Virus record (IMG/VR): IMGVR_UViG_3300042887_001361
Coordinates: 1-41,007 of that record
Source of the DNA: a virus
Reading direction: 5' to 3' (one strand)
DNA length: 41,007 nt
Each line of letters starts with the position of its first letter. Positions within the stretch are counted from its first letter, which is position 1. This document shows, piece by piece, positions 1 to 40,602 of this stretch. The notes beneath the pieces are model-generated. The model had not been told where the DNA came from and made no database searches. It saw only the letters and a list, made by a program, of their open reading frames with translations. Position numbers and translations under genes: made by a program.

Positions 1-127
1 GAGTTTGCACCACCCAAACCCTTAACAGAAGATGTTATATATGCTCTTGATAAAGAAGGGGTTGTTGAAAATATGGACGATCATCAAGTCAGATACGTCA
101 TTAGATGGATAAGAAGAGTAGAAAAAG
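1..127 (+). repeat. Exact 127-bp copy of 38753-38879
   Basis: Bases 1-127 equal 38753-38879 with no mismatch. Base 128 then differs (C versus A), and similarity continues to about 146 before it is lost. The copy lies inside paralogous coding regions. It begins exactly at the first base of the window and its exact part is 127 long, which is also a common maximum k-mer size for de Bruijn assemblers, so the contig may have been cut at a repeat node. A real recent gene-segment duplication and an assembly breakpoint are compatible with each other. Confidence 0.9.
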
Positions 128-156
128 CACATGGCATTGGAGGTGGTAATGAATAA
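1..156 (+). CDS. C-terminal end of a modular small phage protein (5'-truncated)
   Basis: The reading frame is open from base 1 and ends at TAA 154-156, giving 51 residues that finish EKAHGIGGGNE. Residues 1-42 are identical to part of the complete protein at 38552-38905, and the DNA is identical over bases 1-127. It is therefore the tail of another member of the modular family at 37892-39264; its own N-terminus lies outside the window. The codons for the final GIGGG contain GGAGGTGG (139-146), which is placed as the Shine-Dalgarno site for the gene at 149. Function unknown. Confidence 0.75.
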   Translation, partial: EFAPPKPLTEDVIYALDKEGVVENMDDHQVRYVIRWIRRVEKAHGIGGGNE

Positions 157-406
157 CATAAAAGAACTAACAGAGCTATATGGAGTAACTGCAAAAACAC
201 CAGATAGCTTAAATATATTTATAACTGAGATTTATAGTCATGGCTATCATGACGGCAAGGAGTTTTCATCTACACCTATATCACTACGTGACCACTTTGC
301 TGGCTTGGCTATGCAGACATTACCAAAAAATATACCGGATATGGAAACTTTAGCAAGATGGTCATACAAGATGGCAGACGCAATGATGGAAAGGAGAGAG
401 GAATAA
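149..406 (+). CDS. Small conserved phage protein, SLRDHFAG-type
   Basis: An 85-residue protein starting MNNIKELTE. The ATG at 149 is preferred over one at 131 because GGAGGTGG ends two bases before it and because 131 lies deep inside the preceding gene's C-terminus. The middle motif SLRDHFAGLAMQ followed by a C-terminal helix (LARWSYKMADAMMERRE) is a pattern I know from many small phage proteins of unknown function. It is probably a soluble early or accessory protein. It overlaps the preceding gene by 8 bases and is followed two bases later by the next ORF. Confidence 0.75.
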   Translation: MNNIKELTELYGVTAKTPDSLNIFITEIYSHGYHDGKEFSSTPISLRDHFAGLAMQTLPKNIPDMETLARWSYKMADAMMERREE

Positions 407-37387: not shown

Positions 37388-37559
37388 AAACGCACGTTGC
37401 TTAGGAAGTAACTGCGACAAGAAACAAAATTGTGCTAGGTATTTAAGTATAGAAATTGATACAAAAGATTATTTTTGGCATGGAGATTTTAAAAAAGAAT
37501 TAAAACAACATGACTGTGATTTTTTTATAGATTTTAGGGGGAATTACTATGAGCATTGA
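37365..37559 (+). CDS. Small Cys-rich protein (64 aa)
   Basis: MKYPLPHENARCLGSNCDKK... with the cysteine pattern C-x4-C-x5-C and a fourth Cys in KQHDCDFF, suggesting a zinc-binding fold. ATG 37365 is preferred to 37308 because the longer version would overlap the preceding gene by 80 bases. GGAG lies a little further upstream. Function unknown. Confidence 0.6.
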   Translation: MKYPLPHENARCLGSNCDKKQNCARYLSIEIDTKDYFWHGDFKKELKQHDCDFFIDFRGNYYEH

Positions 37560-37899
37560 ACTATTGATTTATGTTGCGGATTTAGCTAATAGAGTTCCAG
37601 CTATTATAGTTATAGCTAGCTTAGTTATTGTTGGCGCTTTAATTGTTGCTGGGGTAAATATGGCGGAGACGTATGACGATAACTCTAAAACGGTAGACTA
37701 CTGTAAAAAAATAGGGCGCATAAGCGCAATAATTGTAGTGGTATGCTTTTTTATACCATCACAACAAACCATATACATGGTGGCAGGTACAGCAATGGGT
37801 AGAGATGTTATGCAATCTGATATTGCTATCAAAGTTAAAAAGATTATCGAGTCTAAGCTAAACGACTATGTAAAAGAACTGGAGAAGAAAGGTGAGTAA
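37549..37899 (+). CDS. Membrane protein with two spans (116 aa)
   Basis: Two hydrophobic segments at about residues 17-36 (AIIVIASLVIVGALIVAG) and about 58-70 (RISAIIVVVCFFIP), then a soluble helical tail with QTIYMVAGTAMGRDV and a charged end. The two-span layout and the TIYMVAG sequence match small membrane proteins of unknown function seen in many phage accessory regions. AGGGGG precedes the ATG. Confidence 0.75.
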   Translation: MSIELLIYVADLANRVPAIIVIASLVIVGALIVAGVNMAETYDDNSKTVDYCKKIGRISAIIVVVCFFIPSQQTIYMVAGTAMGRDVMQSDIAIKVKKIIESKLNDYVKELEKKGE

Positions 37900-38194
37900 A
37901 GAAAGAGAGTTGTTGGAAAGAGTTAAAGCTGAAGGGTATATTAGTTTTGGGCTATATAAAGAAATCAAAGAACTACTCGCACAACCTGAGCAAGAAAATT
38001 TAACACCACGACAAGGGCTAGAAGAATATAAAAAAGGCTACGCAAAAGCAGAGTTGGATTTGAAACTTGAGCGTATAAATCATGATGACATATTAGATCG
38101 CTCTATAGATGGAAGTTTTGAATATAAAGATGGCTTCATGGATGGAGTTATGTTTGCTGAAAATCATCACGGCATTGGAGTAAATGATGAGTAA
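37892..38194 (+). CDS. Modular paralogue 1 (ELLAQPEQE / HHGIG type)
   Basis: A 100-residue protein: MSKERELLERVKAEGYISFG, IKELLAQPEQE at about 26-36, a helical middle with a possible DUF-like LEEYKKGYAKAELD, and a DGVMFAENHHGIGVNDE end. It starts the array of related genes; its C-terminus lacks the GGG of the others (GGAGTAAATG). The ELLAQPEQE and HGIGG sections are shared with the next three genes while the middle is not. Overlaps both neighbours. Confidence 0.75.
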   Translation: MSKERELLERVKAEGYISFGLYKEIKELLAQPEQENLTPRQGLEEYKKGYAKAELDLKLERINHDDILDRSIDGSFEYKDGFMDGVMFAENHHGIGVNDE

Positions 38195-38555
38195 ATACAT
38201 AGACATGTTACATCTAATAGTGGAAGGCGACAACAGAGGTGATTTCTTTATCAGCAATGAACTGCTTAAAGAAGCACAAGAACTCCTCGCCCAACCTGAG
38301 TCAAAGCAAGAGCCTGTGGCTTGGATGTGGAAAAAACACACGGCTGGAGGGTGGTTAGATGTTGTTAGTATAGATAAACCTACTGCTAATGCACATCAAA
38401 TAAACATTCGACCACTCTACTACACAGCACCGCAAAAACGTGAGCCATTAACCGATGAAAATGTATGCGAAATATTATTACAGAAAGAATGGAAAGGTTT
38501 TGTTGATCTGGTTCGTATTATAGAAAAAGAACATGGCATTGGAGGTGGGAAATGA
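38187..38555 (+). CDS. Modular paralogue 2
   Basis: A 122-residue protein. MSKYIDMLHL start, EAQELLAQPES then KQEPVAWMWKKH (about 30-50), a beta-rich middle, REPLTDENVCEILL and an ending IEKEHGIGGGK. The combination ELLAQPE...EPVAWM...EPLTDE...EHGI is widespread in phage accessory genes. ATG 38187 matches the MSK start of its relatives; an ATG at 38184 is one codon earlier. GGAGGTGG at its end serves the next gene. Confidence 0.75.
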   Translation: MSKYIDMLHLIVEGDNRGDFFISNELLKEAQELLAQPESKQEPVAWMWKKHTAGGWLDVVSIDKPTANAHQINIRPLYYTAPQKREPLTDENVCEILLQKEWKGFVDLVRIIEKEHGIGGGK

Positions 38556-38905
38556 GTAAAGAAAAAGAGCTGTTGAGAGAAATAATGCGCTATATAGCAT
38601 CGGGTGTAGTGTCTATTACAAGCAATGATCTTGGTGATGCAGCAGAAACGTTGCACGAAATACAAGAACTCCTAGCTCAACCTGAGCAAGAGCCTCTTTT
38701 AGCAGAAACAAAGATTGAATGGTATGGGAAAGGGTTTAGACAAGGGGTCAATGAGTTTGCACCACCCAAACCCTTAACAGAAGATGTTATATATGCTCTT
38801 GATAAAGAAGGGGTTGTTGAAAATATGGACGATCATCAAGTCAGATACGTCATTAGATGGATAAGAAGAGTAGAAAAAGAACATGGCATTGGAGGTGGGG
38901 AATGA
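38552..38905 (+). CDS. Modular paralogue 3 (shares its C-terminus with bases 1-127)
   Basis: A 117-residue protein with MSKEKELLREIMRYIAS..., HEIQELLAQPEQEPL at about 35-49, PKPLTEDVIYALDKEG and RWIRRVEKEHGIGGGE. Its last third is the same DNA as the left end of the window. Starts with ATG directly after GGAGGTGGGA (38541-38550). The central part differs from the other paralogues, suggesting domain swapping. Confidence 0.78.
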   Translation: MSKEKELLREIMRYIASGVVSITSNDLGDAAETLHEIQELLAQPEQEPLLAETKIEWYGKGFRQGVNEFAPPKPLTEDVIYALDKEGVVENMDDHQVRYVIRWIRRVEKEHGIGGGE

Positions 38906-39264
38906 GTAAAGAAAGAGAGATGATTGAGAAATTATGTAGTTTTCAAATGACATATAGTGATTGGCTTTTATTAATAGCAGACGCTGAAGAACTTCTCGCC
39001 CAACCTGAGCAAGAGCCTGTGGCTTGGATGGTAGAAACCCATTTTAATAATGAGCCTATCAAAGAGTTTCATACGGTTAAACCAATGGAACGAGTTTATA
39101 AATATTGTAAAGTTACAGAGCTATACTCAGCACCGTTAAAACCGTTAACTGGTATAGAAATATCAAACGGTTTTAAAGCTGATGATGAAGCCACACATCC
39201 CTACAGTTATTGGGCAGGTGTTGAATTTGCTGAGAAGCATCACGGCATTGGAGGTGGGGAATGA
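38902..39264 (+). CDS. Modular paralogue 4
   Basis: A 120-residue protein MSKEREMIEKLCSFQMT... with DAEELLAQPEQEPVAWMVE at about 26-44, a PLKPLTGIEISNGF middle, and GVEFAEKHHGIGGGE at the end. The start is ATG 38902, not the longer in-frame one at 38857, which lies within paralogue 3. The ribosome-binding site is GGAGGTGG (38891-38898) inside the end of paralogue 3. Its own end supplies the site for 39261. Confidence 0.78.
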   Translation: MSKEREMIEKLCSFQMTYSDWLLLIADAEELLAQPEQEPVAWMVETHFNNEPIKEFHTVKPMERVYKYCKVTELYSAPLKPLTGIEISNGFKADDEATHPYSYWAGVEFAEKHHGIGGGE

Positions 39265-39569
39265 GTGGAGGATTTTTTGATCATAGTCAATATACCCTAA
39301 ACCAAATTGTGACGGATATTGAAGATGAAATATATTATAATGATTCAGAAGAAGTTAATGAATACAACGAAAAACGAGGTAATGGATTCAGTGAAGATAC
39401 TATGCAAGAATTCAAATTAGCTGTATGGTATTTGAAACAAGCACTGGTTTATGTACATGAAATCGATTGGCTATTATCTGGCGACACGGGAGAAAAAAGT
39501 TTTCACGAAAGACTTACAAGAAAACTAAATGCTCTTAATAATACTGTTTCAAATCAGGATAATACCTAG
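39261..39569 (+). CDS. Conserved small phage protein (MSGGFFDHSQY type)
   Basis: A 102-residue acidic helical protein. MSGGFFDHSQYTLNQIVTDI, FSEDTMQEFKLAVWYLKQAL and VYVHEIDWLLSGDTGEKSFHERL match a common phage family of unknown function (MSGGHFDY... FHERL). It is read from GGAGGTGG at 39250-39257. The C-terminal 35 bases overlap, on the other strand, the end of the homing endonuclease gene. Confidence 0.8.
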   Translation: MSGGFFDHSQYTLNQIVTDIEDEIYYNDSEEVNEYNEKRGNGFSEDTMQEFKLAVWYLKQALVYVHEIDWLLSGDTGEKSFHERLTRKLNALNNTVSNQDNT

Positions 39570-40395
39570 ATATTAAATTTTTAGCATAAGTTTTTTTGGT
39601 ATCTATTATAGATAAAAACATGACTTTAGATGGATTATCAACCCCATGCTTAATCATACATGTTAATAATTTCTTATCTTTAACAGATTGATATACTGAA
39701 GGATTGAGTGTTCCGTTTTTTAATTTAGTTTCTTTGCATTTCTTAATAGAATCTGGAGTATTTGAGTTTACAGTTCCATTTTTTATTTTGGTTTCTCTTT
39801 GTTTATTTTTAACTAATGGATTACTCGCCTCAGTTCCATTTCTTATTCTAGTTTCTTTTGATTTTTGAATAGATTCAGGTGTAATAGAGTTTGTAGTTCC
39901 ATTTCTTATTTTAGTATCCTTGCTTTTTTGTATAGACTCAGGGGAGGAATTATTCATAGTTCCATTTTTTATTTTGGTATCTAATTGTTTTTGAATAACA
40001 ATAAGACTATTTGGTTCGGTTCCATTTCTTTTCTTTATAGATTTAATTTTATGATATGTTTCATCATCTGCATAAAATGTAGTTCCTCCATTATGGATAT
40101 TTAACCATTCTGATGACTGAGCAGCACCTATTTTGGTTAGAAATTTTGATTCCCAAGATACTGTTTCTGCTCTAGTTTTGAATGTTTTTCTTATCTCAAA
40201 GGTAAACGAATCTACACCGTGTTCTTTTATAAGGTCGGATATTGTTTTAGAAGAAGTGAAGTAAGTAGTCCATAGTTGGTCAGGATGAGCAACTACTTTT
40301 TTGTTATTTGCATATCGTGAACCGTAGTATCTTTGTCTAGTAGGAAGAAAGGTAATACAATATGTGAAAGGTGTATATATAGTTGTGCTGGTCAT
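39535..40395 (-). CDS. GIY-YIG homing endonuclease with tandem DNA-binding repeats
   Basis: A 286-residue protein, the only minus gene in the right-hand block. Residues about 10-100 are a GIY-YIG-like nuclease: TYCITFLPTRQRYYGSRYANN at the two strands, HGVDSFTFEI, and a Glu in TVSWESKFLTKI. Six tandem about 21-residue repeats follow (about 120-240), with RNGT/KNGT cores and PESIQKSK-type helices, as in the NUMOD-like DNA-binding part of such enzymes. The end has HGVDNPSKV. ATG 40395 has AGGA seven bases upstream; the longer in-frame start at 40461 is less likely. Confidence 0.82.
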   Translation of the reverse strand: MTSTTIYTPFTYCITFLPTRQRYYGSRYANNKKVVAHPDQLWTTYFTSSKTISDLIKEHGVDSFTFEIRKTFKTRAETVSWESKFLTKIGAAQSSEWLNIHNGGTTFYADDETYHKIKSIKKRNGTEPNSLIVIQKQLDTKIKNGTMNNSSPESIQKSKDTKIRNGTTNSITPESIQKSKETRIRNGTEASNPLVKNKQRETKIKNGTVNSNTPDSIKKCKETKLKNGTLNPSVYQSVKDKKLLTCMIKHGVDNPSKVMFLSIIDTKKTYAKNLISRYYPDLKQYY

Positions 40396-40602
40396 ATTGA
40401 TTCCTGTAATTAATTGTAGAATGATTAGAGCCAATAGATGTTGACGCATCGTGATTGGCATTTTTTATATAATGTATTTATATAAATTAAAATTCCATGA
40501 AAGATTGAAAAAAGATTTGGAAAAACTAAAATAAAACGTTTACTTTTCCAAATAATAGTATATAATAGACTCATAAATTAAATTATTGAGGAATTATATA
40601 TT
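40396..40602 (+). promoter_or_regulatory. Intergenic region with a promoter for the gene at 40603
   Basis: TTTACT (40539-40544) and TATAAT (40561-40566) are separated by 16 bases, upstream of ATG 40603 and a GAGG site near 40589. The region is AT-rich and no gene fits. It probably serves both the rightward small genes and, on the other strand, the homing endonuclease, for which I see no clear promoter. Confidence 0.55.

Follow-up and report, generated by a model that had tools for sequence, protein, structure and literature searches.

Short conserved sequences at gene boundaries in lambdoid phages have been proposed as targets of homologous recombination that give rise to mosaic genomes (Susskind and Botstein 1978; Clark et al. 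2001, cited in PMC3233612). Whether phage mosaicism originates by boundary-homology targeting or by random recombination followed by selection is debated (PMC3233612). In cluster K mycobacteriophages, short Start-Associated Sequences (SAS) containing AGGAG stand immediately before the starts of genes from different families; they are conserved from phage to phage and sometimes take in the upstream stop codon (PMC3203893). The lambdoid early phage protein Ead/Ea22 (IPR025153) has N-terminal, middle and C-terminal parts and occurs in mosaic variants (PMC10834534, excerpt). Recent shuffling of fragments between otherwise unrelated phage proteins is known as domain mosaicism, with receptor-binding proteins, endolysins and polymerases as hotspots (PMC10684548, excerpt). 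At the level of translation, genes can be coupled through NTGA overlaps, with the Shine-Dalgarno sequence (SD) influencing coupling (reviewed in PMC12548453), and the placement of SD sites within the 3' coding region of a nearby upstream gene is documented genome-wide (PMC2784483).

We analyzed a 41,007-base virus record from IMG/VR, referred to in its entirety as the window. Its right part contains four tandem overlapping genes (cassettes 1 to 4; 37892-39264), and a fragment of a fifth cassette lies at its left end (1-156). All four genes and the fragment end in HGI-type tails, and the SD of the next gene lies within the tail codons. The cassettes probably belong to a mosaic family of small proteins, with gene assembly and exchange taking place at short DNA-conserved joints and the boundary joint doubling as a translation signal. 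The genes and SD sites are as follows.

1..156, + strand: 3' part of the fifth cassette, truncated by the contig end and nearly duplicating 38751-38905; tail HGIGGGNE
139..146, + strand: GGAGGTGG, SD of a non-family gene, in the tail of the fifth cassette; ATG at 149
149..406, + strand: gene after the fifth cassette (MNNIKELTEL...), non-family; also present in L011, there behind a different module
37881..37884, + strand: GGAG ahead of the cassette 1 GTG, within the 3' end of the non-family gene upstream (37549-37899)
37892..38194, + strand: cassette 1, 100 aa, GTG start, tail HGIGVNDE
38177..38180, + strand: GGAG within the 3' end of cassette 1, serving as the cassette 2 SD
38187..38555, + strand: cassette 2, ORF opening at 38184, tail HGIGGGK
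38541..38548, + strand: GGAGGTGG, SD for cassette 3, within the cassette 2 GIGGG codons; ATG at 38552
38552..38905, + strand: cassette 3, 117 aa, tail HGIGGGE
38891..38898, + strand: GGAGGTGG, SD for cassette 4, within the cassette 3 GIGGG codons; ATG at 38902
38902..39264, + strand: cassette 4, 120 aa, tail HGIGGGE; modeled as helical hairpin, strands and helices
39250..39257, + strand: GGAGGTGG, SD of a non-family gene, in the GIGGG codons of cassette 4; ATG at 39261
39261..39569, + strand: gene after the array, not a cassette; weak match to phrog_6724; start on the tail-borne SD
39535-40461, - strand: GIY-YIG homing endonuclease directly after the array, with several tandem (I/K)(R/K)NGT-type repeats

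For GGAGGTGG and the ATGs that follow it, the coordinates given in the initial annotation were exact throughout, and the first junction indeed holds only GGAG. The shared layout described there stands as regards the tandem genes. A common ATG start fails for cassette 1, which opens with GTG (37892), and the supposedly common middle EPVAWM is replaced by QPEQENLTPR in cassette 1 and by EPLLAE in cassette 3. For cassette 2, ATG 38187 suits the GGAG better (6 nt) than ATG 38184. The fragment at 1-156 represents a fifth cassette cut by the contig end, since it closely matches 38751-38905 yet differs in its last part (KAHGIGGGNE versus KEHGIGGGE) and in the gene that follows. This near copy at the left end probably reflects a contig break in a repeat during assembly and suggests that the genome is incomplete.

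Matches to terminase, portal and major head proteins identify the window genome as that of a tailed phage. It also encodes a DNA polymerase, a primase, a helicase and a DUF2800 exonuclease. Its terminase relatives carry P22-like portal and coat genes, and the nearest annotated ones come from phages of lake and spring water, at 73% and 70% identity. Scanning genomes with the cassettes returned one weak match, on a Burkholderiales MAG contig, which is limited evidence for a host. Neither the array nor its cassettes had a blastn or tblastn match among 50,697 phage records; in the same search, one relative had no match and another had one weak match. Pfam and PHROGs offered no usable family for the cassettes, although some members weakly match phrog_60, whose function is unnamed. 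A fold search against viral structures gave weak matches to uncharacterized proteins, and structural similarity to an Ea22-like protein was weak (E=0.15). We found no paper describing the HGI cassette family in the open-licence literature. The cassette products may be variable early accessory proteins facing host factors.

To survey the tails of relatives, we gathered them from protein-based relatives and with two degenerate patterns ending at HGI, which avoids selection by SD. This yielded at least 334 distinct tails in at least 310 viral loci (L numbers below), and in 303 of the 334 tails listed an ATG lies no more than 20 nt from the stop codon. Many contigs are fragments, and because the loci are related by descent and exchange, all p-values are approximate. 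Among the tails listed, the glycine codon after HGI, where it lies 10-14 nt before the next ATG, is GGA or GGG in 150/153 cases, against a background of 30% of 21,612 glycine codons. The glycine of the H-G pair behaves according to its distance from the ATG, with GGA or GGG in 32/248 listed tails at 15-20 nt versus 20/35 at 14 nt or less (Fisher p=3e-8). The pattern persists with one representative per upstream module and next gene: 79/81 for the glycine after HGI, and 12/22 (14 nt or less) and 26/161 (15-20 nt) for the H-G glycine. An SD of at least 4 nt occurs in 257 of the 303 listed tails; synonymous recoding gives a mean of 173 and a maximum of 191. The proposal that codon choice in the tail serves as a translation signal is thus borne out, as it tracks the distance to the next ATG and exceeds the recoding null.

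Within the 39 distinct HGIGGG tails among those listed, which come from related loci, the glycine codons are nearly fixed (GGA 38/39, GGT 39/39, GGG 29/39). GGAGG is present in 38/39, in 35 of these 5-6 nt before the ATG. Owing to these near-constant codons and this spacing, the SD-in-tail pattern is not due to chance. The start of the next gene overlaps the upstream gene in 163/195 representatives of the listed tails.

The residues that follow HGI are diverse, with at least 157 different peptides among at least 352 tails, and 137 of the 157 listed peptides nevertheless carry an SD consensus of at least 4 nt. The codons of HGI itself vary (CAC/CAT, GGC/GGT, ATT/ATA). At L280, HGI is kept, followed by GGC ATC AAA TAA and a terminator-like sequence, with no SD codons and no close next gene; strong SD codons are also missing from a few other tails that have no next start. 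A second, unrelated conserved tail, LKEKNT, was found in at least 109 distinct ORFs (e.g., L259, L262, L269 and L284), largely in genes that share the internal joint described below. It carries AAGGAG with a start overlapping the stop. Its K-E codons are AAG in 92/109 and GAG in 96/109 of the ORFs listed, versus backgrounds of 0.60 and 0.55. The start is mostly ATG among the ORFs ending in LKEKNT and a stop, and cases without a following ATG mostly have GTG or TTG at the same position, as read from the sequences. Given the varying HGI codons, L280, the 157 peptides and the LKEKNT tail, HGI appears to be held as protein and the stretch after it as a ribosome-binding site. The initial annotation, which suggested that the end peptide could be kept for translation, was therefore right for the residues after HGI and not for HGI itself.

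Exchange of modules was assessed on both sides of the gene boundary, with upstream C-module clusters defined over 110 nt at 85% DNA identity or more. Among the listed tails, 33 of the 34 C-modules with several members precede more than one different next gene. This is also seen for the window cassettes. The C-part of cassette 1 recurs with 94% DNA identity in L011, upstream of a different gene, that of cassette 2 stands before another gene in L034/L088, and the cassette 3 module is found elsewhere after several unrelated N-parts and before several different genes. Pairs with a shared upstream module but different next genes show an identity of 0.93 at HGI and are down to 0.32 by 24 nt past the H codon; pairs with a shared next gene but different upstream modules retain an identity of about 0.9 over the stretch 12-7 nt upstream of the ATG. 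The SD and spacer are 0.78-0.92 identical in the latter situation versus 0.56-0.79 in the former (baseline, 0.32-0.47). It had been suggested that each cassette carries the signal for whatever gene follows. This is partly reversed, as the SD and spacer stay closer to the downstream gene, a linkage that is not significant in a cluster-level test (p=0.32).

Two further joints, J2 (LLAQPEQEPVAW) and J3 (YTAPxxxxPLT), lie inside the genes. The joints of the window array are listed below.

37970..38002, + strand: J2 (ELLAQPEQENL), cassette 1
38280..38327, + strand: J2 (ELLAQPESKQEPVAWM), cassette 2; alignment ends pile up here
38415..38465, + strand: J3 (LYYTAPQKREPLTDENV), cassette 2; long matches to L034/L088 begin here
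38514..38575, + strand: gene-to-gene joint J4-J1, cassettes 2/3 (cassette 2 end, SD, overlapping stop and start, MSKEKELL)
38666..38698, + strand: J2 (ELLAQPEQEPL), cassette 3
38756..38788, + strand: J3-like stretch (FAPPKPLTEDV), cassette 3
38864..38925, + strand: gene-to-gene joint J4-J1, cassettes 3/4
38989..39030, + strand: J2 (ELLAQPEQEPVAWM), cassette 4
39124..39159, + strand: J3 (YSAPLKPLTGIE), cassette 4; L013-L018 matches begin and L016/L020 matches end here

At J2, 6/7 N clusters and 15/16 following clusters are re-paired; the corresponding values at J3 are 7/11 and 4/5. In the window array, 47 of 58 (81%) ends of long matches to other phages fall in joints (p=5e-9) compared with 43% expected, the joints covering 43% of the array stretch and part of this signal being expected since joints are alignable everywhere. 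Several of the remaining ends lie directly beside a joint. With C-modules standing before different next genes and match ends falling in joints, the idea that the tail sits where modules are exchanged was upheld. The internal joints, overlooked in the initial annotation, are the strongest evidence for such swapping, and sequence comparison shows both segments and whole genes to be re-paired at the joints. In an AlphaFold2 model (mean pLDDT 79, pTM 0.40), the joints separate three predicted elements: a helical hairpin, a region of strands and helices at the C-terminus.

J2 was sampled with a degenerate pattern and is present in at least 134 loci (e.g., L317-L377). Between copies with unrelated flanks, it is far more alike as DNA than codon usage predicts, with identities of 0.88 and 0.92 at GAG codons (expected, 0.50) and 0.90 at GTG (expected, 0.26). 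It occurs, as AQPEQEPVAW, in at least two main DNA dialects, GCCCAACCTGAGCAAGAGCCTGTGGCTTGG and GCACAGCCAGAGCARGAGCCTGTGGCGTGG, and its variation consists of scattered third-position changes. A recent common origin of the joint rather than selection could explain this conservation. A role of J2 as an internal start site (PVAWM) was rejected, as M follows W in only 35 of the 134 listed copies.

In our preferred reading, the proteins would be built of a helical N-part, a three-strand middle and a helical C-part. The boundary joint would run from the HGI codons through an in-frame SD, read as the last residues, to a start overlapping the stop and the first codons of the next gene. A ribosome ending one cassette would meet a strong SD and a well-spaced start, so that the next gene would be translated in step, which is strongly supported by the sequence. 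Selection would act on the DNA between HGI and the start rather than on the GGGE peptide, and the tail would thus largely be the leader of the next gene in the upstream frame. The joints, about 30-40 nt long, presumably offer short homologies at which phage recombination could re-pair unrelated segments and genes with frame and start preserved; lambda Red recombination tolerates 22% divergence (PMC2327257). It is a guess that the exchange is assisted by a phage exonuclease, for example the DUF2800 protein. Only tentatively would we extend this reading to a shared joint kit (domain borders plus stop-SD-start) for free exchange of accessory genes and gene parts between unrelated phages, with joints selected as DNA for exchangeability and not only hitchhiking.

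The array might instead be an ordinary compact operon, in which overlaps need an upstream SD, the cassettes are recent tandem duplicates and the tails are alike by descent only. The principle of an SD inside an overlapping upstream gene is indeed ordinary. It was described before (PMC2784483), and among 319 ATGA pairs from outside the family on the same contigs, 226 (71%) have an upstream gene containing an SD of 4 nt or more. What is not ordinary is the strength and uniformity of the SD in HGI tails, which reaches at least 6 nt in 37/61 HGI pairs versus 49/319 control pairs. Moreover, the tail peptides vary while the SD stays, the unrelated LKEKNT tail has the same design, and duplication alone leaves re-pairing at three kinds of joint across contigs unexplained. 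We therefore regard this account as unlikely.

A role of the HGI(GGG) end peptide mainly in protein function, such as binding or a degradation signal, with incidental SD codons, fits the HGI residues, which lie at the end of a predicted helix, have variable codons and persist at L280. The residues after HGI are unconserved, with codons that depend on how far away the next start lies; for the GGG part this explanation is refuted by the codon data, and overall it is very unlikely. Site-specific or programmed exchange resembling an integron, a shufflon or a diversity generator would suit joints that are short, DNA-conserved and placed between unrelated segments. However, the dialects and scattered third-position changes of J2 are unlike a strict recombinase site, and among the matches listed, the sole adjoining nuclease (GIY-YIG) occurs only in the window and two near-identical contigs, L004 and L005. 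Such a mechanism appears very unlikely, and on the same distribution the homing endonuclease was rejected as the driver of exchange.

Like the lambdoid boundary sequences, the cassettes keep a short sequence at boundaries between unrelated genes (at least 303 tails), and switches between homologous and unrelated sequence occur at these joints, where recombination may be targeted. They differ in that joints are also intragenic, at predicted domain borders, and in tandem within one genome, and in that the boundary joint consists of coding sequence, SD and start. As with SAS, an SD-bearing sequence is linked to unrelated genes. SAS is one near-fixed 13-nt sequence, whereas the cassettes encode the SD in the final codons of proteins whose C-terminus is otherwise conserved and whose genes also have internal joints. 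A near-fixed SAS sequence (GGGATAGGAGCCC) was not found before the starts, where the tail DNA varies (GGAGGTGGGGA, GGAGTAGATG, AAGGAGAACAC and others). The mosaic layout recalls Ead/Ea22, although none of 26 members matched the Ead/Ea22 Pfam family at E<=0.05, and the shared joints and tail-borne SD of the cassettes are not reported for Ea22 in the excerpted text of PMC10834534. Unlike the hotspots of domain mosaicism, the cassettes are small uncharacterized proteins in which the joints themselves are conserved as DNA.

The HGI family thus provides many natural replicates in which the same modules are re-paired at the same joints and joint DNA is conserved beyond codon usage. We read its short conserved boundary sequences as doubling as translation signals, and pieces could be swapped between viruses with translation preserved. 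A conserved-looking C-terminal peptide can partly be the ribosome-binding site of the next gene, which matters when such tails are taken as evidence of function.

With respect to translational coupling, the cassettes show an overlapping or close start and an SD in the upstream coding end, and translation of the downstream gene may depend on that of the upstream one. Coupling as such is a general mechanism, independent of any exchangeable cassette family like that of the HGI genes. RNA folding of the window junctions gave no consistent structure occluding the SD and thus no support for strict coupling. The junction of the fifth cassette (99-198) was the only one to fold better than shuffled sequences (z=-2.95). 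In L101, L108 and L111, HGIV tails have an ATG inside the H-G codons (CATGGC), and the putative next start overlaps HGI itself.
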